This document shows positions 749 to 37,106 of a stretch of DNA of 64,000 nt, in pieces. The position numbers and the translations under genes are program-made. Below the pieces are notes generated by a model. It made no database searches. It saw nothing but the letters and a program-made list of their open reading frames with translations, and was not told the DNA's origin. Origin of the DNA: Pseudanabaena sp. FACHB-1998 (GTDB lineage: Bacteria; Cyanobacteriota; Cyanobacteriia; Pseudanabaenales; Pseudanabaenaceae); the NCBI RefSeq assembly GCF_014696355.1, contig NZ_JACJQA010000003.1, positions 248,001 through 312,000 on the forward strand. Reading direction: 5' to 3'. Position 1 is the stretch's first letter. Every line of letters starts with the position of its first letter.

Positions 749-2548
749 ATGGCGATCGGGAAAAGAAGTATGCAGAAACGAACTAGGGTCAAACAATGGA
801 AAGCCGCCATCTTGCTGCTGATCATCGGCATGTGTTCACTGCTGCTTTGGGGTTGCTCAATTAAGTCCGAAGCCCTCAAAGATCGCCTAGTTGTTCCCTT
901 AGATAGCGATATTAAAACCTTTAATCCGATTCTAGTTAATGATGCCTATAGTGGCATTGCGATGAGCTACACCCTCACAGGACTAATTGTCGAAAATCCC
1001 CTCACCAAACAATTAGAGCCAGAACTGGCAGAGAAATGGGAATTTCAGCAAGAAGGCAAACAACTTATTTTTACAATGCGTCCAGACCTCAAATGGTCAG
1101 ATGGTCAACCGCTTACCGTGGACGATGTCCTATTTACCTTTCAAGACATTATCTTTAACGAGAAGATTCCTTCAGGTAGTCGTGATGTATTAAGAATTGG
1201 GAAATCTCAAACCTTACCAAAGATTGAGAAGCTAGACGATCGCCGCATCTCCTTCTTCATGAGTGAACCTTTTGCCCCAGCCCTGCGGACTATTGGCGGC
1301 ACGAGTATTTTACCTAAACATGTTTTTGCTTCTACAGTCGTAGAAAATCCCAATGACAAAAAAATTAAATTCTTAGAAACATGGACACTCAATACGCCCG
1401 TTAATCAATTAGTTGGTAATGGCGCTTACATCATGCAGGAATACCGTCCTTCCGAAAGAATTATCTACCAGCCAAATCCCTACTATTGGAAAAAAGGAAC
1501 TCCTAAGATTGAAAAATTTGTGATGCAAGTTGTGGAATCTCCTGATACCGCCCTACTGCGGTTCCGTTCAGGGGATTTAGATATGTATCGGCTCCGAGGA
1601 GAGGACTATCAATTATTAAAGCGTTTTGAACAACGCGATCGCTACAAAATTTATAATGCTGGGCCCGCGACAGGTCAGTCCTTTATTATGTTTAACCTTA
1701 ATAAGGGACGAGATCCTAAAACCAATCAGCCCTTTGTCGATCCGATTAAATCGAAATGGTTTAACGATGTTAATTTTCGTCGAGCAGTCGCCCATGCCTT
1801 GAATCGGGAAGCAATGATTACGAATTTGTCCAGAGGATTAGCACAAACGCAAAACTCGCCCGTCTCTATTGGTAGTCCCTATTACCTTTCACCAGAGCAA
1901 GGGCTAAAAGCCTATGACTACCTGCCCGAAAAATCTAAGGAAATTTTATTGAAGGCTGGCTATAAATACAATTCTGAGCAGCAACTCCTTGATTCCGAAG
2001 AAAATCTTGTTCGATTTACTTTATTGACTCCTGCGGGTGGAAGAGTTCTCTTAGGCGCACAGATTAAAAACGATTTAGAAAAAATCGGGATGAAAATTGA
2101 TTTTAACCCTGTGGAATTTCGGATTATCTCCGATAAACTGAATAACTCTAAACAATGGGATGCCACGATCCTCGGCTTTACGGGTGGCGCAGAACCAAAC
2201 AGTTCCATTAATCTCTGGGCTACCGATGGAGATTCCCATTTATTTAACAAGGGTAATGTAGGCGAAGAAAAGCCTTTTATTGGGCGTGAAGTTGCGGATT
2301 GGGAACAAAAAATTCATGATCTGATGATTAAGGGAGCGCAAGAGTTAGACGAAACTAAGCGCAAAGTGATTTACGCAGAGTATCAACAACTAGTACAGGA
2401 GCAACTGCCACTAATTCATTTAACCGTTCCTTTATATCTTGTTGCGGTGCGCGATCGCATTGAAAATGCTATACCCTCAGCCTTGGCTGGTAGTACGGGC
2501 GTAACAGGCGCTTTGTGGAATGTCGAGCAGTTAAAATTAAAGTCTTAA
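749..2548 (+). CDS. ABC transporter substrate-binding lipoprotein, oligopeptide/nickel type (SBP family 5)
   Basis: Periplasmic solute-binding protein of the DppA/OppA family, expected to deliver peptides or a similar solute to an inner-membrane ABC permease. A basic N-terminus and hydrophobic stretch (about 19-34) run into LLWGC with the acylated Cys at position 36, a lipoprotein signal. The mature part carries the family segments LAEKWEF, LKWSDGQPLTVDDVLFTF and FRRAVAHALNRE. The length of 599 residues is normal. No permease or ATPase gene adjoins it, so its transporter is encoded elsewhere. A second ATG at 770 is an alternative start with a comparable purine-rich leader. The substrate cannot be read from the sequence. 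Confidence 0.88.
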   Translation: MAIGKRSMQKRTRVKQWKAAILLLIIGMCSLLLWGCSIKSEALKDRLVVPLDSDIKTFNPILVNDAYSGIAMSYTLTGLIVENPLTKQLEPELAEKWEFQQEGKQLIFTMRPDLKWSDGQPLTVDDVLFTFQDIIFNEKIPSGSRDVLRIGKSQTLPKIEKLDDRRISFFMSEPFAPALRTIGGTSILPKHVFASTVVENPNDKKIKFLETWTLNTPVNQLVGNGAYIMQEYRPSERIIYQPNPYYWKKGTPKIEKFVMQVVESPDTALLRFRSGDLDMYRLRGEDYQLLKRFEQRDRYKIYNAGPATGQSFIMFNLNKGRDPKTNQPFVDPIKSKWFNDVNFRRAVAHALNREAMITNLSRGLAQTQNSPVSIGSPYYLSPEQGLKAYDYLPEKSKEILLKAGYKYNSEQQLLDSEENLVRFTLLTPAGGRVLLGAQIKNDLEKIGMKIDFNPVEFRIISDKLNNSKQWDATILGFTGGAEPNSSINLWATDGDSHLFNKGNVGEEKPFIGREVADWEQKIHDLMIKGAQELDETKRKVIYAEYQQLVQEQLPLIHLTVPLYLVAVRDRIENAIPSALAGSTGVTGALWNVEQLKLKS

Positions 2549-2564
2549 AGTAATACCTATAGAA

Positions 2565-2595
2565 GTTGTCATTTTGCCTACGGCAAAATGACAAT
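2565..2595. terminator. Hairpin after the SBP gene
   Basis: 14-bp perfect arms (2565-2578 and 2582-2595) with loop TAC, 17 bases after the stop. It argues that the next gene starts at 2620 rather than at an upstream codon inside the stem. Confidence 0.6.
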
Positions 2596-2619
2596 TCAAA
2601 AACTTTATTTGGGACTTTT

Positions 2620-3312
2620 ATGAAACATCCAAGCCTAGAAAAACTTTTCTACTCCAGTCTAGTTACGGAACATATAGTTCCTGAAGGAAAGGATGCCGAA
2701 TTTAAACATTGGTATCAACTACTTGTAGAAGACGCTAAGCAATGCCAAGGTTTTCTTTGCTGCGACCTCTGCCCACCACTTGTTTGTAAAGATCCCGTAG
2801 TCAAGTGGTACTACATTATTCATTTTGATTCGCCAAATCACCTCAATAAATGGATGGAATCAAGCGATCGCCTCAAATTATTAAAATCTGGTCAGGATAT
2901 TTTTTACGCCTATCGCTTCAAATCTTTCACCACAGGTTTAGAAGGTTGGTTTTCGATGCAATCAGGTAATGCTGAATATGCAGGGCTGGGACCCTCCCGA
3001 TGGAAACAAATTCTTGCAGTAGTTCTAGGGCTTTATCCGATAGTTATGTTGCAATCCCTTATTTTTTCCCGTTTAGGAATCATGCAATCTTGGTCATTGG
3101 CGAATTCGATGATTGTTAACAACCTAATCACTTCCACGATTTTAAGCTTAGTAGTAATGCCTTTTATATCAAAGAGACTAAGATTTTGGCTCAAGCCTGC
3201 TTATCTGCCAATATCGCTAAAGACTAATATCTTTGGTAGTGCTGTTGTAATAACGTTAATGGGAATTATGCTGATTCTTTTTGGAATAATTTCTCCCGTT
3301 AATACCAATTAG
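2620..3312 (+). CDS. ABM-domain (antibiotic biosynthesis monooxygenase-like) membrane protein
   Basis: The N-terminal ~115 residues resemble the dimeric alpha/beta-barrel ABM fold of small heme-degrading or quinone monooxygenases (TEHIVPEGKDAEFKHWYQ near the start, then a C-C-DLCPP segment). Three hydrophobic helices follow: about 125-150, 155-180 and 195-220. ABM-plus-membrane proteins of this layout are common in cyanobacteria and proteobacteria, with no established substrate. The ATG at 2620 was chosen because the longer reading frame begins inside a hairpin. The enzyme activity is an inference from the fold only. Confidence 0.7.
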   Translation: MKHPSLEKLFYSSLVTEHIVPEGKDAEFKHWYQLLVEDAKQCQGFLCCDLCPPLVCKDPVVKWYYIIHFDSPNHLNKWMESSDRLKLLKSGQDIFYAYRFKSFTTGLEGWFSMQSGNAEYAGLGPSRWKQILAVVLGLYPIVMLQSLIFSRLGIMQSWSLANSMIVNNLITSTILSLVVMPFISKRLRFWLKPAYLPISLKTNIFGSAVVITLMGIMLILFGIISPVNTN

Positions 3313-3315
3313 CCC

Positions 3316-3369
3316 GTACAAACCAAAACCAAGAAGCGCCGAAACTCGCTTCTTGGTTTTGGTTTGTAC
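3316..3369. repeat. Hairpin, degenerate member of palindromic family A
   Basis: 23-bp perfect arms (3316-3338 and 3347-3369). The bases on the left (TTAGCCCGTAC) match an outer part of the 10423-10539 element, and those on the right (CTAATGCAAGTGAC) match the 36991-37106 element. It lies between convergent genes, so it can also terminate both. Confidence 0.7.
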
Positions 3370-3394
3370 TAATGCAAGTGACAACACTTATCAT

Positions 3395-4828
3395 TCACTT
3401 TTTGGGAGATAAAACAATTGACTCCTCTTCATGATTTGGTAATAGCCAACTCAGCAGAATAGCTGTCAAACCTCCAGTGGAAATTGATGAGCCAAAAAGA
3501 TTTTGAAAGATTGGTGGCTTATTAACAAAAACTTCAGGTACAAATATTACGCCCAATCCTAAGCCTAGAGACACTGCCACAATAATCATCGAACGACGAT
3601 CAATTCCCGCAGATACGATAATATTTAACCCCGCAACCGCGATCGAGCCAAACATGACTAAGGTAGCTCCGCCCAATACTGGCTGGGGAATAGTTTGGAA
3701 GATGCCACCCACAAAGGGCAATAGACCGAGAATCATAAAAATCCCTGCGACATAAAAACCTACATAACGACTACCAACACCAGTCATTTGAATTACGCCA
3801 TTGTTTTGGCTAAAGGTAGTCGTGGGGAAGGTATTGAATGCGGCGGCAATCAGAGAGTTGATGCCATCACCTAAAACACCGCCCTTAATGCGACGAAGAT
3901 ATACGCCACCTGTGAGAGGCTGACCCGATACCGATGAAGTTGCCGTCAAATCACCCACAGTTTCGATCGCTGTTAATAGATAAATTAAAATAATCGGCAA
4001 AAATGATGTCAAATCAAAACTAATCCCATAACGAAAGGGAACGGGTATTCTAAATAACGGCTGTTGACTTAGAGAACTGAAGTTTACAAGACCCAGCAAG
4101 ATAGAAATAATAAAGCCAATAGTTAACCCGATCGCGATCGCGCCCATGCGTAAAAAGCGATTTTTAGAAAGCGTCAGCATAATTACAATTAGTAAAACAG
4201 TGCCGCCAAGGACAAGATTTTGCGTACTTCCAAAAGAACCATTATTCTTTTCTAAAGCAACTATTCCTCCCGCAAGGCTGATAATTCCTGTTTTGATTAA
4301 TCCTAAACCGATAATCATCACCACAGTTCCTGAAACTACAGGAGTAATTATTTTATCGAGGAGATGCAAAAAACGGCTTAAGATAATTTCGACAAAAGCC
4401 CCAAACAAGCAAACTCCAAAAATTAAACCTAAGGCTTGTTCAGGTGTGCTTCCGCCTTGCAGAGCCACTGTTCCAACTCCCAAAATAGGTCCTAAAAAAG
4501 CAAAACTAGTACCTTGCAGACTTAGCAGCCCCGACCCAATCGGTCCAATTTTTTTGCATTGAATATAGGTTCCAATACCCGAAACAAAAAGCGACATGCT
4601 AATTAAATAGCTGGTATTGGCGGCATCTAGCCCTAAACTGCTACAAATAAGGATGGGAGGAGTAATAATCCCCACAAAAGCAGCCAAAACATGTTGAAAA
4701 GCGACAAAAATAGATTCTGCAATTGGTGGATGATCATTCAAGCCATAAATTAGTCCAGATTTTACTATTTCGGATGCCTCGCTAACCTCAACCTCATCAC
4801 TAGCACTTAAATCTATATTGGCTTGCAT
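3395..4828 (-). CDS. NCS2 family nucleobase:cation symporter (uracil/xanthine permease type)
   Basis: Inner-membrane symporter that imports a purine or pyrimidine base with H+ or Na+. The 477 residues form the usual 12-14 helices. The NCS2 signature near residues 108-130 (QCKKIGPIGSGLLSLQGTSF) and the loop with ETVGDLTATS at about 287-296, including the substrate-binding Glu, are present. The long cytoplasmic N-terminus (about 35 residues) is normal for the xanthine branch. The BMP-type nucleoside importer at 41.9-46.9 kb is a functional parallel. Whether it takes xanthine, uric acid or uracil cannot be told from the sequence alone. Confidence 0.9.
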   Translation of the reverse strand: MQANIDLSASDEVEVSEASEIVKSGLIYGLNDHPPIAESIFVAFQHVLAAFVGIITPPILICSSLGLDAANTSYLISMSLFVSGIGTYIQCKKIGPIGSGLLSLQGTSFAFLGPILGVGTVALQGGSTPEQALGLIFGVCLFGAFVEIILSRFLHLLDKIITPVVSGTVVMIIGLGLIKTGIISLAGGIVALEKNNGSFGSTQNLVLGGTVLLIVIMLTLSKNRFLRMGAIAIGLTIGFIISILLGLVNFSSLSQQPLFRIPVPFRYGISFDLTSFLPIILIYLLTAIETVGDLTATSSVSGQPLTGGVYLRRIKGGVLGDGINSLIAAAFNTFPTTTFSQNNGVIQMTGVGSRYVGFYVAGIFMILGLLPFVGGIFQTIPQPVLGGATLVMFGSIAVAGLNIIVSAGIDRRSMIIVAVSLGLGLGVIFVPEVFVNKPPIFQNLFGSSISTGGLTAILLSWLLPNHEEESIVLSPKK

Positions 4829-4938
4829 ATATTGATATTTTAATTGCTTTAAATATTTGTGTATACTGTATACATCTAGATTTATTAATTCCGCTAGAAT
4901 AAATACAAAAGATAAAAATCAGTCTTATATAACAACCC

Positions 4939-4991
4939 TAAATAATTTAAGAGAGTACAGTCCTTCGGACTGTACTCTCTTAAATTATTTA
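4939..4991. terminator. Strong hairpin after mreD
   Basis: 25-bp perfect arms (4939-4963 and 4967-4991), loop TTC. It starts 21 bases past the mreD stop on the minus strand and ends in TTATTT-like sequence in that direction, so it most likely ends the mreBCD transcript. Confidence 0.8.
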
Positions 4992-5012
4992 ATTTCATCA
5001 ATGCAAAGATGA

Positions 5013-5558
5013 CTACTCATCTTTTCTTTCTAGCGATCGCCACCAGCGACTGAGCGGAAAATAAATTGCTGGCGACCATAGACTGCTGAGAATCGCGGAA
5101 CTGAGAGCAATTCTTTGCTGTAAAGTCCACACATTATCCATACTTGCGCCCATGGCAGTTAGTTGGATGGCGTGCATCGTCTCCACAATTACCGCCATAC
5201 CAAACACAATCAGCGCGATCGAAATAAAATCCTCTTGCATATATCGCTGTTTTTGGAGCAAAGCAGTTAAACCACCAGCGATCGCTAAGCCTAAAGCATG
5301 GGTCGGAGAAGTTCGTACTGCTGCAAAAGTCATACTATCTTGCAAAAGTCCCAGTCCTATTCCTGCCATGGTCGCCAAGATTACAGGACGATTAACACTC
5401 CATGTCACCAACCAAATCAATAACCAATTGGGCGCAATTCCCGCCAAAGTCATTCCCGGAAATCGCGTATACATCGCCAACACACAAACAAATAGCGAAC
5501 CACCTGTTACAGACCAGTTCACCACTTTTGTCGCTAGAGACACCTTGCGATCGAGCAT
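5013..5558 (-). CDS. mreD: Rod shape-determining protein MreD
   Basis: Small integral membrane protein of the elongasome, which links MreB filaments to peptidoglycan synthesis. The 181 residues contain about five hydrophobic segments, beginning with WSVTGGSLFVCVLAMYTRF and including the PNWLLIWLVTW stretch that is usual for MreD. The start codon abuts the mreC stop, and the order mreB-mreC-mreD on one strand is the classical operon. MreD sequences diverge strongly, so the call depends on context plus hydrophobic profile. Confidence 0.9.
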   Translation of the reverse strand: MLDRKVSLATKVVNWSVTGGSLFVCVLAMYTRFPGMTLAGIAPNWLLIWLVTWSVNRPVILATMAGIGLGLLQDSMTFAAVRTSPTHALGLAIAGGLTALLQKQRYMQEDFISIALIVFGMAVIVETMHAIQLTAMGASMDNVWTLQQRIALSSAILSSLWSPAIYFPLSRWWRSLERKDE

Positions 5559-6305
5559 TTAGCGCTTCTCTTGAAAAGGATATACCTTTACATATTCTAA
5601 TAAACCCAGAGGGGTCGAAAACTCGACGATCGCCTCAGGAGAAGGTTGCTTATCTAAATTAATTGACTTGATCCTACCGACAGGAACACTTTCAGGAAAC
5701 AAAGTGCTGAACTGCGAAGTATGGACAATATCCCCGATCTTAACGTCAGGATCACGCTCAAAAAACTCTAAAGTAGCAGTATTTTGGCTTTGCCCCTTTA
5801 GCATTCCCGTAAAGCGACTCCGACTAACGACTACCCCCACTTGACTATTAGGATCGCTAATTAACAAAATTTGACTGCTATTAGGAGAAACATGGGTGAC
5901 ACGCCCAACTAAGCCCCCGGGAGCGACAGCGACCGAGCCAGCTTTGATGCCGTCATTACTGCCCTTACCAATTAAGATTTGATTCCACCAAGAATCAGCA
6001 CCACGACCAATTACTACAGCCCAAACGCCAGAATCGGTGGGGCTAACTTTTACCTTTAAAAGCTCCTTCATCTGCTGGTTTTGAGATTCTAGCTCAGTCA
6101 ATCGGTAGCGCAGTTCCCGTACTTGAGCATCTTGCAATAACTCTTGCTTAGATACACTTGCCTGAAAAGGGCGACTAAAAAATTGATAAGTTTCCATAAT
6201 TGCAACACCATTGGTTTGGCGAATAAACCAAGCCAAACCAAGCCCCGTTGCAACGATAGCAGTCTGGAAACTATAACGCTCCCACCAACTACGAATTGAA
6301 TCCAT
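5559..6305 (-). CDS. mreC: Rod shape-determining protein MreC
   Basis: Bitopic periplasmic scaffold of the elongasome. From the ATG at 6305 it has 248 residues: a short cytoplasmic start (MDSIRSWWERY), one membrane helix at about 14-30, a coiled coil at about 55-85, and the MreC beta domains with VAPGGLVGRV and GDIVHTSQFSTLFPESVPVGRI. The same frame is open 96 bases further upstream into mreB, but that longer start gives a non-homologous Cys/Ser-rich extension, so 6305 is preferred. The mreB stop lies 11 bases upstream of it. Confidence 0.93.
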   Translation of the reverse strand: MDSIRSWWERYSFQTAIVATGLGLAWFIRQTNGVAIMETYQFFSRPFQASVSKQELLQDAQVRELRYRLTELESQNQQMKELLKVKVSPTDSGVWAVVIGRGADSWWNQILIGKGSNDGIKAGSVAVAPGGLVGRVTHVSPNSSQILLISDPNSQVGVVVSRSRFTGMLKGQSQNTATLEFFERDPDVKIGDIVHTSQFSTLFPESVPVGRIKSINLDKQPSPEAIVEFSTPLGLLEYVKVYPFQEKR

Positions 6306-6316
6306 GAAAAACTTAC

Positions 6317-7342
6317 CTATAAATTTTTCAAGCGACTGGTGAGTACACGACCAAGATTTTTGTAGTCTTCGAGTACTCGACCCGCACCAATCACCACACA
6401 ATTAAGTGGTGCTGGAGCAATGTGCGTGACAATGCCTGTCTCATGGCTAATCAGGGTATCGATACCATTGAGTAAAGCACCACCACCAGCCAACATAATG
6501 CCGCGATCGATAATATCGGCAGCAAGTTCAGGAGGAGTCCGTTCTAAGGTTCTCTTTACGGCTTCGATGATTACCGAAAGTGGCTCACTCATACTTTCTC
6601 GAATTTCTGAAGACTTAACGGTAACGGTGCGGGGCAAACCTGACAATAGGTGTAAACCTCTCACTTCCATTGAAGTTTCTTCTTTAATTGGATAGGCTGA
6701 GCCAATTTTGATTTTGATTTCTTCAGAAGTGCGTTCCCCAACTACGAGGTTATGAACGGTCTTCATGTACTTCATGATGGCTTCGCTGAGTTCATCACCT
6801 GCCACACGTACAGACTCACTCAATACAATGCCTTGTAAGCTCATAACCGCAACTTCGGTCGTCCCACCGCCGATGTCAATGATCATGTTACCCGTAGCTT
6901 CGGTTACAGGCAGCCCTGCCCCGATCGCTGCGGCAATGGGTTCGTCAATGGGGTAAACTTCGCTCGCACCAGCACGACGCGCCGCATCCATGACGGCTCG
7001 CCATTCTACGCCTGTAACGCCACTAGGAATGCCGATCGCAATGCGAGGATTAAATACTCCTTTTTTGACTTTTTGAATAAATGCTCTAAGCATTAATTCC
7101 GCAGAGTCAAAATCTGCTATTACTCCGTCTTTGAGGGGACGCACCGCAATAATGTCACCAGGGGTGCGCCCGATCATTTTGTTTGCCTCATCTCCAACTG
7201 CGTAGGCAGTCTTATCTCGTTGATCGATCGCAACAACTGATGGCTCTTGCAACACGATACCTTCCCCAGACACATATATAAGTGTGTTGGCAGTACCGAG
7301 GTCAATGCCGATGTCTTTTGTAAAATGGCGTAATAAACCCAC
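6317..7342 (-). CDS. mreB: Rod shape-determining protein MreB (bacterial actin)
   Basis: Actin-like ATPase that polymerises under the membrane and positions cell-wall synthesis. The phosphate-1 motif DIGIDLGTANTLIY lies near residue 10, the connect/phosphate-2 motif DIGGGTTEVAVMS near 156-168, and the adenosine motif LAGGGALLNG near 285. The length of 341 is standard. It is the first gene of mreBCD; the 5' gap (7343-7781) holds two palindromic elements. Recognition is secure. Confidence 0.97.
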   Translation of the reverse strand: MGLLRHFTKDIGIDLGTANTLIYVSGEGIVLQEPSVVAIDQRDKTAYAVGDEANKMIGRTPGDIIAVRPLKDGVIADFDSAELMLRAFIQKVKKGVFNPRIAIGIPSGVTGVEWRAVMDAARRAGASEVYPIDEPIAAAIGAGLPVTEATGNMIIDIGGGTTEVAVMSLQGIVLSESVRVAGDELSEAIMKYMKTVHNLVVGERTSEEIKIKIGSAYPIKEETSMEVRGLHLLSGLPRTVTVKSSEIRESMSEPLSVIIEAVKRTLERTPPELAADIIDRGIMLAGGGALLNGIDTLISHETGIVTHIAPAPLNCVVIGAGRVLEDYKNLGRVLTSRLKNL

Positions 7343-7460
7343 AGTAAACTCTTCCAGTGGTCAAACTAGCTATATCGCCTTTAAATTTTATTACGATTGT
7401 TGTCATTTAGTCTAGTCTTAACCACTATTCCCTGAAGCCGATACTTTAGGAGGGTGATAT

Positions 7461-7556
7461 TTAAGTGCTTGTACAAAATAAATTACCAAGACCCGTAAAG
7501 TTGCGCCCTGTAGGGGCGCAACTTTACGGGTCTTGATTTGGAATTAATTAAGCCTA
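7461..7556 (+). repeat. Palindromic element family B, copy 1
   Basis: Outer sequence TTAAGTGCTTGTACAAAATA on the left and TTAATTAAGCCTAC on the right flank a 22-bp perfect stem (7487-7508 with 7514-7535). The inverted copy at 8860-8966 matches almost base for base outside and inside; a third relative is at 21255-21369. Confidence 0.8.
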
Positions 7557-7652
7557 CTCCCTTCCCAGCCTAAAAATAGACATTAAAACCCAAGAATTTA
7601 GCTATGCGGCGCGAAGCCCCACCTAGCTAATTCTTGGGTGGGAAGGGAGTAG
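7554..7652 (+). repeat. Palindromic element family C, copy 1
   Basis: Outer inverted repeats CTACTCCCTTCCCA (7554-7567) and TGGGAAGGGAGTAG (7639-7652) enclose a second stem (CCCAAGAATTTAGCT against AGCTAATTCTTGGG). Related copies are at 56464-56560 and, in part, 48056-48130. Confidence 0.8.
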
Positions 7653-7781
7653 CTACTTACTTTGTGAGGTTTTTAGGTTTAATGCAGTGGCAAGGCTATT
7701 TTTTAAATCTAAAAACCTTGGATTGGTTTGTTGCGATATGATTAAGATACATAACAATTATTAACAATTAACTATTATCCA

Positions 7782-8228
7782 ATGAGTGATTGGCTAGAAC
7801 ATACCGTACAAACCGAAGTAAGTATTCCTGTGGAATATGCATGGTCGTTGTGGTCAGATTTAAGCGCCATGCCCCGTTGGATGAAGTGGATTGACTCTGT
7901 AGTAATCACTGATGATCCTGAAATATCGGCTTGGAAGCTTGGCACGAACGGCTTAACCTTTACTTGGAAATCTCGGATTCTCAAACAAATTCCCAATCAG
8001 ATTATGCAATGGGAGTCGATTGGGGGCTTACCTAATCGCGGAGCTATTCGCTTTTACGGTCGCCCTAATCAAACTACTATCGTGAAGCTAAGTATTGCCT
8101 ATGCCATTCCTGCGATCGGGCAGCTAATGGATAATTTATTTTTAGGAAAGATTGTTGAGACTACTTTGCAAGAGGATTTAGACCGATTTAAAGTTTATGC
8201 CCAAGAGGACTTTGCAAAAGCAAGCTAA
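7782..8228 (+). CDS. SRPBCC (START/polyketide cyclase-like) family protein
   Basis: 148 residues with the helix-grip ligand-binding pattern of SRPBCC proteins: the opening strand TVQTEVSIPVEYAWSLWSDLSAMPRWMKW, then alternating strands and a long C-terminal helix (ETTLQEDLDRFKVYAQE). Such cyanobacterial proteins bind hydrophobic ligands; some act as Coq10-like quinone chaperones or cyclases. No catalytic residues can be assigned. It converges on the fur-like gene with a bidirectional hairpin between them. The ligand is unknown. Confidence 0.8.
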   Translation: MSDWLEHTVQTEVSIPVEYAWSLWSDLSAMPRWMKWIDSVVITDDPEISAWKLGTNGLTFTWKSRILKQIPNQIMQWESIGGLPNRGAIRFYGRPNQTTIVKLSIAYAIPAIGQLMDNLFLGKIVETTLQEDLDRFKVYAQEDFAKAS

Positions 8229-8281
8229 GCAGAAAAATTTTTTAAAAGTTTGATAATCCCAAAAAGAAAAGGATTTATATT

Positions 8282-8318
8282 GCAAGGATCGGCGGCGCGA
8301 AGCGCCGCCGATCCTTGC
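8282..8318. terminator. Bidirectional hairpin between convergent genes
   Basis: 17-bp GC-rich perfect arms (8282-8298 and 8302-8318), loop GAA, with A/T-rich flanks on both sides. It sits between the SRPBCC stop (8228) and the Fur-family stop (8332). Confidence 0.8.
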
Positions 8319-8331
8319 CTATTTAGGATTA

Positions 8332-8793
8332 TTAAAAGATAGATCTTTGTCCTTCGGGACTAACTCCAATAATTGTGAGTTGACAGTCTAGAACTGAGAA
8401 ACCATATTTATCTGCAACTTTTTTACTAATCGTTAGGATTTGATCGTTCTTAAATTCAATCACTCGATTGGTCTTGACACAGACAAGATGGTGATGATGA
8501 TGGGGTCTGGGCTGATTAATTTCGTAATGTTTATGATCTTCGGTAAGTTCTAATTCCCGTAAAATTCCCATCCGTGCCATCATTTTTACAGTGCGATAGA
8601 TAGTGGATAGGCTAATATTTTCACCTTGAGTTTTCAATCTTTCATATAGATCTTCAGCGCTTAAATGCTCGCCTTCGGGGAGAGTTTGGAATGTATTTAG
8701 AATCACCTCGCGTTGCGGAGTCATCCGACAACCCTTTGAATTGAGTTCAGCTTTGAGGGATTCAGGTGAATAGGTGGTCTCCACGGAAGTCAT
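8332..8793 (-). CDS. Fur-family transcriptional regulator lacking structural-zinc cysteines
   Basis: The N-terminal half (SLKAELNSKGCRMTPQRE, then LSAEDLYERLK and SLSTIYRTVKMMARMGILREL) closely follows cyanobacterial FurA, the iron-responsive repressor, and the regulatory H-rich stretch HHHHH lies at 98-102. FurA normally has two CxxC pairs, or at least one, in its C-terminal half. Here the first pair reads C105-V-K-T108 and the second S145-P-E-G148, so neither is intact. C22, C105 and C137 are the only cysteines. The 153-residue length is normal. It may be a Fur that works without the structural zinc, or a diverged paralogue. The target genes are not evident. Confidence 0.88.
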   Translation of the reverse strand: MTSVETTYSPESLKAELNSKGCRMTPQREVILNTFQTLPEGEHLSAEDLYERLKTQGENISLSTIYRTVKMMARMGILRELELTEDHKHYEINQPRPHHHHHLVCVKTNRVIEFKNDQILTISKKVADKYGFSVLDCQLTIIGVSPEGQRSIF

Positions 8794-8859
8794 AGCATTA
8801 TCAATAACGATAGCTTCTTGAGAATAGCATAATTAAAAGCAGTGCTAAGCAATGCTTTT

Positions 8860-8966
8860 AATTAGCTAGGCATAATTAATTACAAACCAAAACCCATAAA
8901 GTTGCGCCCCGACGGGGCGCAACTTTATGGGTTTTGGGAATTTATTTTGCACAAGCACTTAATTAG
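8860..8966 (-). repeat. Palindromic element family B, copy 2 (inverted)
   Basis: Reverse orientation of the 7461-7556 element: the right end reads AAGTGCTTGTGCAAAATAAAT on the minus strand. Its 25-bp stem is at 8887-8911 with 8913-8937. Stem sequence and both flanks agree with copy 1 apart from scattered paired changes. Confidence 0.8.
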
Positions 8967-9071
8967 TGAACAGCCTGTAAAACTACGGCGTACAATGCGC
9001 GGGTGACCCAGTTTTGCAGTGTAGCTACTTATGCTATGGTTAAAAATCTCTGTAAATTAAAGTAATTAGCC

Positions 9072-10283
9072 ATGCCATCGTTGCCCCGTGCGATTATTCA
9101 TCGTAAAAAAGTCGATGCGGTTCAGCGTTTTCATCCTTGGATTTTTTCGGGTGCGATCGCTAAACTCCAAGGTGAAGTCCATGATGGCGATTTGGTCGAA
9201 GCCTATAGCGAGGATGGCAAATTTTTGGCGATCGGCTTATGGGGCTTGGGTAGCATTGCGATTAAGGTGCTATCGTTTCAGCCTGTGGAGTCGATGCAAA
9301 GCTTACTGCGCGATCGCCTGAAGCAAGCTTTTATTTTGAGAAAGCAATTAGGTTTAATTGATAATCCAGAAACCAATTGCTATCGGTTAATTAATTCGGA
9401 AGGGGATGGCTTAGCAGGATTAATTATTGATATTTATGGTGATACGGCGGTTTTGCAATGCCATTCCTTAGGAACTTATCGCTATCGTCAAGATATTGCG
9501 GAGATTTTGAAGGAAATTTATGATCAACAGGCGGGCGATCGCTTGCAAGCAGTTTATGACAAAAGCTCAGCGACGCTTTCGCGCAAATCACAAGCTCAGT
9601 CTCAGGATGGTTTATTGATTGGCGAGAAATCGGCTGATAGTGCGGAAGTTTTGGAATATGGACATCGCTTTATTGTGGATTGGGAAAAAGGTCAGAAAAC
9701 AGGCTTTTTCTTGGATCAAAGAGAAAATCGGCGGTTGTTTGGCAAGTATGCGGCTGGGAAAAAAGTTTTAAATACCTTCTGCTATTCGGGCGGCTTCTCG
9801 GTTTATGCGATCGCGGCAGGGGCAAAGGAAGTGCATTCGATCGATAGTTCGGCGAAGGCGATGGAATGGACGGATCGGAATATTGCGGCAAATTTCGACA
9901 GCGATCGCCAAGCTATTCATCAATCCTTTACGGGTGATGTCTTTGATTTTTTAAAGCAATGCGACTCTGATTATGAGGCGATCGTGCTTGATCCTCCTGC
10001 TTTTGCGAAGAGTCTATCCGCGAGGCATTCGGCAATGCAAGCTTATAAGCGCTTAAATTTACAGGCGATGGCAAAATTAAAAAGTGGTGGATTGCTGTTT
10101 ACTTTTTCCTGCTCGCAGGTGGTGAATGTGGAGAATTTCACAGGCGCAGTGACGGCGGCGGCGATCGAGTCAGGACGGACTATTCGCATTTTGGATCATC
10201 TCCATCATCCTGCTGATCATCCTACAAGTATTTTTCATCCTGAAGGGGCTTATCTGAAGGGATTAGTTTTAAGCGTAATTTAA
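9072..10283 (+). CDS. 23S rRNA (cytosine-5)-methyltransferase, RlmI family
   Basis: Class I SAM-dependent RNA methyltransferase. An N-terminal PUA domain (about 3-75, opening RKKVDAVQRFHPWIFSGAI) is followed by an EEHUP-like linker and a Rossmann domain with FLDQRENR (about 214-221), the SAM motif LNTFCYSGGFSVYA (about 234-247) and the catalytic motif LDPPAFAKS (about 312-320). The C-terminal FSCSQVV supplies the conserved cysteine region. The 403-residue length matches RlmI (m5C1962 of 23S rRNA in E. coli). The exact target base in this organism is an inference. Confidence 0.9.
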   Translation: MPSLPRAIIHRKKVDAVQRFHPWIFSGAIAKLQGEVHDGDLVEAYSEDGKFLAIGLWGLGSIAIKVLSFQPVESMQSLLRDRLKQAFILRKQLGLIDNPETNCYRLINSEGDGLAGLIIDIYGDTAVLQCHSLGTYRYRQDIAEILKEIYDQQAGDRLQAVYDKSSATLSRKSQAQSQDGLLIGEKSADSAEVLEYGHRFIVDWEKGQKTGFFLDQRENRRLFGKYAAGKKVLNTFCYSGGFSVYAIAAGAKEVHSIDSSAKAMEWTDRNIAANFDSDRQAIHQSFTGDVFDFLKQCDSDYEAIVLDPPAFAKSLSARHSAMQAYKRLNLQAMAKLKSGGLLFTFSCSQVVNVENFTGAVTAAAIESGRTIRILDHLHHPADHPTSIFHPEGAYLKGLVLSVI

Positions 10284-10422: not shown

Positions 10423-10539
10423 TCTAGCAATGTAAGTTTTGTTTAGGACATAAAACTCCCAAAAGCGAGTTGCGGCGCTTCGCGCCGCAACTCGCTTTTG
10501 GGGTTTTGGTTGGTACGGGCTAACTTTTGCTTTGCTATA
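10423..10539 (+). repeat. Palindromic element family A, copy 1
   Basis: 117 bp, left end TCTAGCAATGTAAG, right end CTTTGCTATA. The central 21-bp stem is at 10458-10478 with 10482-10502. The inverted copy 21933-22048 matches along its whole length, and 36991-37106 shares the ends and the stem design. TATAGC/GCTATA termini suggest insertion at TA. Confidence 0.8.
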
Positions 10540-11213: not shown

Positions 11214-12989
11214 ATGAATATTGAAGAAGGGACATCCCTTATATTGACTACCTGCCAAAATTATGAAGTACCGCTAGATTACTTAGATCGACAATTACTG
11301 ATTGGGGCTTTAAATGGGTTAACTGTAGAAAAAATTTATTTGGAATACGATCTTAAAAGTGCCTGTACTATTGGATATTTAAAAACTAACCGATCGCCTA
11401 AGTTTTGGAAAAAACTAAATAATCTTTTTCAGTCTATAGGATTAATTTCTTCCGTAGATAGGTTGGGTCGTTCAAATATTTGGTCATATACTCTTTCATT
11501 ACAAAAAAGAATTCAAGATAACACTTTATCTTTTACTTATGAGCGTATTTGGGATCGCCCGATTCCTGAGGAAAAAAGCGATCGCTTTAAAGTAATTAAT
11601 GATTCTTCACTTACTAGGAATCAATCAAAATCATCGGTTCCAACTAGTAGAGAGTTGCCTGAATTGTTGGAATTTTATGGTCGAGAAGCCGAACTTCAGC
11701 AACTTCAAGAATGGATTGTGCAAGAAAAAAGTAGAATTGCAGCGTTAATCGGCATTGGTGGAGTTGGCAAAAAATCTTTAGCTTATAAATTAATTGAAGA
11801 AATTCAAGGCAATAATCCAGAAAATGCTTTTACGAATATTGTGTGGCGATCGCTACGCCATGCCCCACCAATTCAAGAGCTTTTGAGCGATGTGATTACC
11901 GATATTTGCGATGATGCAAATGTCCCAGTGATTAAAAATGTTGATCGAGGCATTTCTCAATTACTCAGCTTGTTGAGATCGCAACGTTGTTTATTAGTGC
12001 TGGATGATTGGGAAGTTGTGTTAGATCGCAATCGTACAGGGGTTTATCAGCGTGAACATAGCGATTATGGAGAGCTATTAAGATCGGTAGCCACCAATGA
12101 ACACAACAGTTGCTGCATCATTATCAGCCGCGAGATGCCTATTGAAATTGTCAAGAAGGAAAAACTAGCTAATTCTGTTTATCGAGTTTTACCTCTTAAG
12201 GGGCTGGATGTGAATGCAGCAAGTCAGATTTTGATATCTAGAGGAATCGATCCCCAAACTCCAAAATTATTTGACTTAGTCCAGCATTATCAATGCCATC
12301 CTTTTGCCTTGCAAATTGTCGCTAATATTGTGCAAGAGCAGTTTAATGGCAATATTGCCAGCCTTTTACGTTCGAGTACTGTTGTCCTCGATGATGCTCT
12401 CCAAGATCTTTTAGACGAGCAGTTTGAGCGCTTACAACCGACAGAAATACAGGTTATTTATTGGTTGGCGATCGCCTCTCGACCAGTTACGCAAGAGCAA
12501 ATTCATAGTTGGTTAAGCGATCAACCTCCGCGCTCAGTTACGATTTCTACTTTAGAATCCCTCAGGCGGCGATCGCTACTCCAGATTGTGGATATAGAAC
12601 TCGCGAATTTATTACCAGCGGGAGAAGAGCCTTACCCAGCTATTGGCTATACCTTAGAGCCTGTGGTAATGAAATATGTGTTGGGAAGATTTATCGAGCA
12701 GATTTGCCAAAATATTTTGTCACTTCTATCAACTAAGCAAATCGAGCGATCGGGACTGCTATGTAGTCATTCAATTTTGCAAGCAGAATCTCCTGAAGAA
12801 ATTCAACTAATTCAGAAAAGACTCTTAATCTCGCGGATTCGGGCAGTTCTCGGTAGTCGCTGGTTTAGTCAAGAGGTCTTGTTAGCAAATTGTCGTGAAC
12901 TTTTGCAAATGTATGAAAATAGCACTTTGATCACTTTGTGTTATGCAGTCCATAATTTGCAGCTGATTATGGATATGGAAATTTCTTAA
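11214..12989 (+). CDS. NB-ARC (STAND) ATPase with vMAP-type N-terminal domain and altered P-loop, no sensor repeats
   Basis: Signalling ATPase of the STAND class. Residues ~1-80 resemble the winged-helix N-terminal domain (vMAP type) of cyanobacterial NB-ARC/WD40 proteins. FYGREAEL (154-161) opens the NB-ARC domain. The P-loop at 180-188 reads GIGGVGKKS: the Ser/Thr that should follow the Lys and bind Mg2+ is Lys187. The Walker B LLVLDDWE (260-267) and the sensor-like SR (305-306) look normal, as does the CHPFALQIVA segment. The protein ends at 591 residues, with ~100 residues of helical tail and no WD40, TPR or HEAT repeats. GAGAGG six bases before the ATG supports the start. It stands alone between repeat-rich gaps. 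Confidence 0.85.
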   Translation: MNIEEGTSLILTTCQNYEVPLDYLDRQLLIGALNGLTVEKIYLEYDLKSACTIGYLKTNRSPKFWKKLNNLFQSIGLISSVDRLGRSNIWSYTLSLQKRIQDNTLSFTYERIWDRPIPEEKSDRFKVINDSSLTRNQSKSSVPTSRELPELLEFYGREAELQQLQEWIVQEKSRIAALIGIGGVGKKSLAYKLIEEIQGNNPENAFTNIVWRSLRHAPPIQELLSDVITDICDDANVPVIKNVDRGISQLLSLLRSQRCLLVLDDWEVVLDRNRTGVYQREHSDYGELLRSVATNEHNSCCIIISREMPIEIVKKEKLANSVYRVLPLKGLDVNAASQILISRGIDPQTPKLFDLVQHYQCHPFALQIVANIVQEQFNGNIASLLRSSTVVLDDALQDLLDEQFERLQPTEIQVIYWLAIASRPVTQEQIHSWLSDQPPRSVTISTLESLRRRSLLQIVDIELANLLPAGEEPYPAIGYTLEPVVMKYVLGRFIEQICQNILSLLSTKQIERSGLLCSHSILQAESPEEIQLIQKRLLISRIRAVLGSRWFSQEVLLANCRELLQMYENSTLITLCYAVHNLQLIMDMEIS

Positions 12990-12994
12990 AGAAG

Positions 12995-13035
12995 CAATTT
13001 TTGGGGTTGCGGCGATGCCGCAACCCCAAAAATTG
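12995..13035. terminator. NB-ARC gene terminator hairpin, right arm interrupted
   Basis: 19-bp perfect arms (12995-13013 and 13017-13035), loop GAT. Removing the 13036-13175 insertion together with one 8-bp duplicate lengthens the stem to AAGCAATTTTTGGGG paired with CCCCAAAAATTGCTT, so the ancestral hairpin was longer. Confidence 0.8.
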
Positions 13036-13175
13036 GGCGTTAATATACTTGACGGACTTTACAAATTCCTACCCCCCTCAGTCCCCCCTTGGAAGGGAGG
13101 AAGTCTGAGTTCTCCCCCTTGAAAGGGGGAGTTAGAGGGGGTTCTAGATATTTGGTGTTCAAGTATATGAATGCC
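13036..13175 (+). mobile_element. MITE-like element, copy 1, with 8-bp target duplication
   Basis: 140 bp. Ends GGCGTTAATATACTTGAC and, reversed, GGCATTCATATACTTGAA form ~18-bp terminal inverted repeats. AAAAATTG stands directly on both sides (13028-13035 and 13176-13183), a perfect 8-bp target duplication. The interior is the CCCCTCAGTCCCCCC/GGGGGAGTTAGAGGGGG type found in many cyanobacterial intergenic repeats. Copy 2 at 34222-34362 is about 95% identical by eye. It encodes nothing, and no matching transposase is in the window. Confidence 0.9.
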
Positions 13176-13349
13176 AAAAATTGCTTATTTTAAGGGCTTT
13201 AAAAACCAAATCCAGTAAGGTTTTTCAAAACTAAAAATGGCGTAGCCATTTTTTAGTTTGCGTATTACTTTTTGGCGATCGCCTCAAAACTAAAAGTTGG
13301 GCTTATGATCTAGGGTAGGTTTTGGCTGTACATAGGTATACGAAAATTT

Positions 13350-21932: not shown

Positions 21933-22048
21933 TATAGCAAAGCAAGAGTTATTCAGTGCAAACTAAAACCCCAAAAGCGAGTTGCAGCGCTTCCCGCCGC
22001 AACTCGCTTTTGGGGTTTTATGTCCTAAGCAAACCTTACATTGCTATA
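21933..22048 (-). repeat. Palindromic element family A, copy 2 (inverted)
   Basis: 116 bp from TATAGCAAAGCAAG to TTGCTATA. Read on the minus strand it aligns end to end with 10423-10539, including TTAGGACATAAAAC next to the stem. The stem has one changed base pair on one side (GCAGCGCTTCCCGCC), so it is no longer fully paired at the tip. Confidence 0.8.
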
Positions 22049-33857: not shown

Positions 33858-34214
<357 letters not shown>

Positions 34215-34221
34215 TAAATTT

Positions 34222-34362
34222 GGCGTTAATATACTTGACGCACTTTACAAATTCTTACCCCCCTCAGTCCCCCCTTGGAAGGGGGGAAGTCTGAGTTCTC
34301 CCCCTTCCAAGGGGGAGTTAGAGGGGGTTCTAGATATTTGGTGTGTCAAGTATATAAATGCC
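34222..34362 (+). mobile_element. MITE-like element, copy 2, with 8-bp target duplication
   Basis: 141 bp, same ends as copy 1 (GGCGTTAATATACTTGAC and reversed GGCATTTATATACTTGAC), so its terminal repeats are closer to perfect. ATAAATTT occurs directly before (34214-34221) and after (34363-34370) it. The downstream hairpin 34364-34394 uses the duplicated bases as the start of its left arm. Copies differ at about seven positions. Confidence 0.9.
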
Positions 34363-34363
34363 A

Positions 34364-34394
34364 TAAATTTGCGGCGCAAAGCGCCGCAAATTTA
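34364..34394. terminator. Hairpin displaced from the HIT gene by the MITE
   Basis: 14-bp arms (34364-34377 and 34381-34394), AAA loop, GCGGCGC tip. It was presumably ~10 bases past the HIT stop before the insertion and is now ~150 bases past it. Confidence 0.75.
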
Positions 34395-36990: not shown

Positions 36991-37106
36991 TATAGCTGTT
37001 GCCATTCTTGTTAAGACACAAAACCTAAGAAGCGAGTTGCGGCGCTTCGCGCCGCAACTCGCTTCTTAGGTTTTGATTTGTCCTAATGCAAGTGACCGCA
37101 GCTATA
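36991..37106 (+). repeat. Palindromic element family A, copy 3
   Basis: 116 bp, TATAGCTG at the left and CAGCTATA at the right, with paired TTTTT/AAAAA outside. The stem reads GAAGCGAGTTGCGGCGC with its complement, differing from copy 1 at several positions that are matched on both arms (AAGAAGCG against CCAAAAGCG). Confidence 0.8.

Follow-up and report, generated by a model that had tools for sequence, protein, structure and literature searches.

Does a short mobile element of Pseudanabaena sp. FACHB-1998 seek out hairpins, or does it reach them by way of the sequence that they contain? The question is raised by a 64,000-nucleotide stretch of the genome, referred to here as the window, in which two copies of the element lie against a hairpin each (Table 1). 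From this coincidence, the first-pass annotation had proposed a target preference for palindromic terminators that would let the element spread with little damage.

Table 1. Coordinates of the two element copies in the window, with their target duplications, adjoining hairpins and upstream genes.
Feature	Position	Strand	Details
ORF upstream of copy 1	11214..12989	+	592 codons including stop
Hairpin adjoining copy 1	12995..13035	.	19-bp stem, 3-nt loop
Target duplication of copy 1, left	13028..13035	.	AAAAATTG; in 3' arm of hairpin
MITE copy 1	13036..13175	+	140 bp; ends GGCGTTAATATACTTGAC / GGCATTCATATACTTGAA
Target duplication of copy 1, right	13176..13183	.	AAAAATTG
Gene upstream of copy 2	33876..34214	+	112 aa, putative HIT-like protein; presumably histidine-triad (HIT) like, named by eye from the motif HLHIHVLGG
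Target duplication of copy 2, left	34214..34221	.	ATAAATTT; begins on the final base of the upstream gene's stop codon
MITE copy 2	34222..34362	+	141 bp
Target duplication of copy 2, right	34363..34370	.	ATAAATTT; outer part of hairpin arm
Hairpin adjoining copy 2	34364..34394	.	perfect 14-bp stem, loop AAA

Both copies have 18-bp inverted ends close to GGCRTTNATATACTTGAC and 8/8 target duplications, and at 140 and 141 bp, with no transposase gene, they have the size, ends and duplications of a MITE. Direct reading of the two sites bore out that the same element lies against a perfect hairpin at each. When the flanks of copy 1 were joined with one duplicate removed, 22 perfect pairs, one mismatch and three more pairs were obtained (arm of 26, score 23), compared with the 19 pairs present now, so the longer perfect stem anticipated for the empty site was recovered. 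The claim that copy 1 splits the right arm held for the outermost pairs only, which are cut off from the rest, whereas beside the element the 19-bp stem remains complete by virtue of the duplicate. At copy 2, the duplicate ran into the left arm of the hairpin as described, with 7/8 of its bases inside the arm. Folded as a single DNA strand, copy 2 itself was predicted to form a strong structure (-46.2 kcal/mol, z -11). An intrinsic terminator would have a GC-rich stem with a T-run behind it in the direction of the gene. A simple terminator scan flagged the copy 1 hairpin on the minus strand only and left the copy 2 hairpin unflagged.

The genome and those of relatives were searched for the same ends. 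The genome of the window contained 14 copies in total: 13 were nearly full and measured 136-141 bp, and the other was a 143-bp variant with a different interior (L086). Among the 61 loci scanned for end pairs in this genome and its relatives, 12 yielded none by the rule used and 49 were kept, 47 of them measuring 131-177 bp and two being long. Duplications were exact (8/8) in 26 of these 49 pairs and 7/8 in 7 more, giving 33 pairs with at least 7/8. An 8-bp target duplication is typical for the IS1595 family of transposable elements.

The two long elements, both from Pseudanabaena sp. UWO311 (G007), have the ends of the MITE and measure 4683 bp (L084, positions 2025-6707, 8/8 duplicate TTTATAAA) and 7219 bp (L085, positions 1985-9203, 8/8 duplicate TTAATTTT). 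A longer match to the right end of the MITE was also found in these elements. The protein encoded by L084 matched PF12762 (6.5e-40), PF12760 (1.5e-10) and NF033547 (9.1e-55), and an ORF of L085 matched PF12762 (6.3e-36) and NF033547 (7.3e-51), identifying IS1595-family transposases; the DDE and zinc-ribbon domains of IS1595 were found in these long partners. In L085 a stop interrupts the matched part of the transposase gene, and the open frame is shorter. The passenger genes of the two elements include one for a P63C-domain protein and one for an HSP90/MutL-type ATPase-domain protein that is weakly BbrUII-like, below the model cut-off.

At E<=1e-40, the cognate transposase was detected in one of 26 Pseudanabaena genomes, and the genome of the window gave 0 matches at this threshold, being a draft of 64 contigs in which the gene may be unassembled. 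It contained four weaker IS1595-type matches, all near contig ends, and the stretches retrieved around these were without the MITE ends, the best end match having 4 mismatches. The window copies are thus MITEs, the driver of which is either missing from this genome or not included in its draft assembly.

For the analysis of targets, the 33 pairs with a duplication of 7/8 or 8/8 were used (31 short, 2 long), and the 16 of 49 pairs with a lower value were dropped. Copies in relatives came from the fetched loci, a set that is not exhaustive and from which partial copies and single ends were left out. For each target, the flanks were joined minus one duplicate and a score was given to the best inverted repeat without gaps that overlapped the octamer, with a score of >=9 taken as a hairpin. 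Control DNA amounted to 864 kb with 129,990 intergenic positions, defined as lying outside ORFs of >=100 aa.

The duplicated octamer lay in a hairpin arm in 19/33 targets, compared with 22.3% of the intergenic controls (binomial 1.2e-5). In the genome of the window alone, the same was true of 9 of the 12 clean-duplication copies among the 14, against 23.9% of intergenic controls (binomial 2.7e-4). Insertion into palindromes above chance was thus confirmed for the 33 clean insertions, and the hairpin association is real. Since the intergenic DNA of the genus is itself rich in hairpins, the proper baseline is high, and the two of two seen in the window were weaker evidence than they had seemed. 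The remaining 14 targets comprised 6 that lay, by eye, in palindromic repeats, either centrally or within one of the halves (L012, L031, L084, L092, L093 and L104), and 8 outside both hairpin arms and such repeats. In a loose sense, 25/33 targets therefore touch a palindrome (19 in arms plus 6 in repeats by eye). Among the dropped pairs, the left duplicate was associated with a hairpin of score >=9 in 5/16 (L090, L094, L097, L112 and L120), and in L100 this held with the right copy only.

It could be argued that the element has no target preference and that MITEs merely survive only between genes, where hairpins abound. Consistent with this, 26/33 insertions were intergenic, and the 22.3% of the 129,990 intergenic controls found in arms compares with 1.0% of 1,500 sampled coding positions. 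The observed 19/33 is nevertheless well above the intergenic rate itself, and the sequence of the targets is far from random (AUC 0.98). Pure chance combined with intergenic survival was rejected on these grounds and is considered highly improbable.

The non-random sequence took the form of a dyad-symmetric motif across the 33 targets, with about five C-rich bases, the A+T-rich octamer and about five G-rich bases. C had a frequency of 0.62 over the five bases to the left of the octamer, G one of 0.59 over the five to its right, and the octamers were 90% A+T; in the 16 dropped pairs, the corresponding flank values were 0.51 and 0.44. When leave-one-out motif scores were entered together with hairpins into a logistic model, the motif term given the hairpin had a p value of 2e-60 and remained at p <1e-28 in every fit. 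The hairpin log odds ratio (lnOR) given the motif was -0.01 +/- 0.43 for all 33 targets and 0.43 +/- 0.75 for the 12 of the genome's own. Motif-matched sampling from a smaller control (459,242 positions, 68,947 intergenic) gave a similar picture, with 19 targets in hairpins observed and 17.6 expected at a score of >=9 (p 0.37), 21 and 17.9 at >=8 (p 0.16), and 14 and 16.4 at >=12 (p 0.86). The proposed preference for palindromes therefore stood insofar as hairpin arms are enriched among the targets, but the motif predicted targets better, and the hairpin lost its place as the best predictor once the motif was included.

The opposite reading is that the transposase recognises a hairpin or cruciform and that the C-W8-G motif is merely what hairpin edges look like in this genus. 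The 19/33 targets in arms are what such recognition would produce, and some structural signal was found where the motif is weak or the repeats are set aside. Folding with DNA parameters gave an octamer pairing of 0.71 for targets and 0.56 for random intergenic positions, and the 13 weak-motif targets tended toward high pairing (0.74 versus 0.56 for random intergenic positions, p 0.009), although their difference from mid-motif positions (0.61) was not significant (p 0.11). For the 21 targets outside the repeat family, the hairpin lnOR given the motif was 1.13 +/- 0.51 at a score of >=8 (p 0.02), a weak excess remained at >=9 (0.79 +/- 0.48, p 0.10), and the value at >=12 was 0.24 +/- 0.48.

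Several observations argue against recognition of structure as such. Fourteen of the 33 targets lay in no hairpin arm (by eye, 6 of these were in repeats), and among the 8 free of both hairpins and repeats several bear the motif, for example L005, L010 and L085. A motif derived from these 8 targets alone told the 13 targets in unique hairpins apart from control hairpin positions with an AUC of 0.977. In the same 13 targets, the flank facing away from the stem, on which the hairpin imposes little, was G-rich too, with G at 28/65 positions, the value for control hairpins being 17.9% (p 1.5e-4 by resampling). At a motif score of >=8, 68.5% of 130 controls lay in hairpins versus 11/20 targets, and the 20 strong-motif targets were no more paired on folding (0.69) than the 130 strong-motif controls (0.75). 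With no hairpin effect detectable across all 33 targets once the motif was controlled, pure hairpin recognition is disfavoured and considered unlikely. The preference is thus attributed largely to sequence, structure possibly contributing a little, and landing in hairpins probably follows from the C-rich/AT-rich/G-rich sequence that hairpins happen to contain. This set does not allow motif to be separated completely from palindrome, since the motif forms a short C/G dyad of its own and 19/33 targets lie in hairpins, with a further 6 in repeats.

Of 12 further loci with related transposases, 5 had similar ends and 8-bp duplications, 4 of these being in other phyla. In this small sample of five IS1595-type elements outside the genus, the target flanks neither made the motif evident nor refuted it. 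One element, from a Chthoniobacterales MAG (L219), has related ends and a palindromic duplication, CTCCGGAG, within GTCC-CTCCGGAG-GGAC, so its target is again dyad-symmetric.

Palindromic repeats contributed a substantial share of the targets, 12/33 lying by eye in repeats of the type CCCC-TTTTTAAG-GGGG or variants of it. The word TTTTTAAGRGG occurred at 25 places in the genome of the window, of which, by eye, 17 were in 11 palindromic-repeat loci and 8 were unrelated. Six of these 11 loci were occupied by the element and five were empty (by eye); a seventh occupied repeat (L012) was missed by the word. Such numbers might also arise if the repeats were themselves mobile units carrying the MITE, in which case the repeat cases would not be independent insertions, and several of the loci do have flank sequence in common. 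The insertions were, however, found in the left arm (L004, L007), in the right arm (L008, L011) and in the centre (L012), each with its own duplication, and enrichment for both motif and hairpins remained in the 21 non-repeat targets. Transport by the repeats is accordingly regarded as very unlikely. The targets were spread over many unrelated hairpins, repeats and non-hairpin sites rather than being confined to one position in one palindrome. L013 and L086 lack the core of the palindrome and are flanked by its left arm on the left and by its right arm on the right, as would be expected from recombination between insertions in the two arms.

The consequences of insertion appeared mild, in agreement with the suggestion of little damage. 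After insertion, 17/19 hairpins retained >=70% of the stem score, and the two that lost more were long repeats (L008, L106). As the cut falls at the stem edge and the octamer is duplicated, most hairpins keep their stem score. Only 17% of 270 strong-motif controls (motif scored with six flank bases) were intergenic; given the 26/33 for the insertions, it is likely that insertions within genes have been selected against.

Relatives were compared using one genome per species. The HIT gene preceding copy 2 was found in 23/24 of them, and a hairpin with a score of >=9 was present within 90 bp of its stop in 17/23 and absent in 6. No element end (<=3 mismatches) was detected within 250 bp of the HIT stop in any of the 23. 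The hairpins 3' of the gene differed in sequence among the relatives. This comparison supports the view that the place after the HIT gene often carries a hairpin, the exact ancestral site not being fixed thereby. An orthologous empty site for copy 1 was not obtained, the matches listed covering only the element and its downstream side.

Taken together, the data are best accounted for by a non-autonomous MITE with the ends of an IS1595-family transposon, for which a transposase would have been supplied in trans in the past. This transposase would cut its targets with an 8-bp stagger and would prefer a dyad in which an A+T-rich core of 8 bp is flanked by about five C-rich bases on the left and about five G-rich bases on the right, presumably by reading the motif directly. 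Hairpin edges would supply the motif as a C-rich stem followed by a T-tract or as an A-tract followed by a G-rich stem, and the CCCC-TTTTTAAG-GGGG palindromic repeats would supply it as well. If insertions last mainly between genes, the surviving copies would come to lie in hairpin arms, where the 8-bp duplication would restore the arm beside the stem and usually leave the hairpin foldable. This explanation as a whole, with a MITE mobilised in trans into a C-rich/A+T octamer/G-rich target and hairpins as suppliers of the motif, is considered likely. It draws on the ends, the duplications, the partner transposase, the motif, a hairpin enrichment explained by that motif and stem retention as measured by score, all of which were observed here. 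A combined scheme is also conceivable, albeit unlikely, in which selection of C5-W8-G5 is helped by extruded hairpins (so that weak motifs are used when they lie in arms), recombination between insertions in two arms replaces the core by the element (L013, L086), and palindromes captured between insertions could yield new MITEs that have the same ends but differ in their palindromic interiors.

The palindromic interiors of these elements were varied. A second MITE-like family, with ends AGAGCGTGTTTGAGAAGT...ACTTCTCAAACACGCTCT and apparently flanked by TA, has the element's palindromic core of 75 bp in its interior at 10 loci (L014, L016-L021 and L023-L025, around 1440-1640); two element families thus have a palindromic interior in common. 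IS1595-type ends were in turn found around another palindromic interior, of the CCCCTTCTCCCGCAGGAGAAGGGG type, in L104, L105, L106, L116, L099 and L086, which looks like the capture of different palindromes by these ends. Directly after copy 1, at 13199-13270, the window contains a repeat of ~66-75 bp with further copies at 82-94% identity, present in at least 16 of 25 genomes searched. Families of long near-perfect hairpins occur in the window at 7485-7535, 8886-8936, 10453-10507, 21965-22019 and 37020-37074.

The analysis yields a rule for target choice by an IS1595-type mobile element that can be put to the test, and it indicates that an apparent taste for hairpins can arise from a short flank-core-flank sequence, with the mildness of the insertions coming from an arm rebuilt by the duplicated octamer. 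It also calls for caution, as hairpin counts made without a motif-matched control can mislead toward structure targeting, and the known REP-targeting cases are candidates for re-examination with such controls. In the part of the literature searched, neither a C-W8-G target nor an association with palindromes was found for IS1595-type elements. IS1595 is not mentioned in PMC6382973 or PMC10969869, and in PMC3281130 it occurs once, in a reference. The four passages on IS1595 in PMC9208149 concern neighbourhood or distribution, one of them reporting that its occurrences are over-represented between genes of the same direction, and none deals with target sequence.

Bacterial MITEs as described in the review PMC10969869 resemble the present element in their short size, inverted ends and mostly intergenic location, and the BOX/RUP/SPRITE clusters of pneumococcus likewise have elements within one another; the Pseudanabaena MITE differs from these in having a defined target motif by which the association can be explained. 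The IS1595 family (PF12762, NF033547) is matched by the long partner in its DDE and zinc-ribbon domains, 8-bp duplications and passenger genes, but the window copies measure 140-141 bp and have no transposase. The IS elements known to target REP sequences, namely IS1397, ISKpn1, IS621, ISPsy8, ISPa11, ISPpu9 and ISRm22 (Tobes and Pareja 2006, PMC1525189), are like the MITE in their repeated insertion into extragenic palindromes. ISPsy8 is described there as interrupting the REP at a single exact point, whereas the MITE has its targets at the edges of hairpins that are numerous and unrelated but have a flank motif in common. The palindrome-entering families named in that paper are IS3, IS110, IS4, IS256 and IS5, with IS1595 unmentioned. 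Palindrome-entering IS elements are thus known in other families, and the Pseudanabaena MITE is an IS1595-type case.
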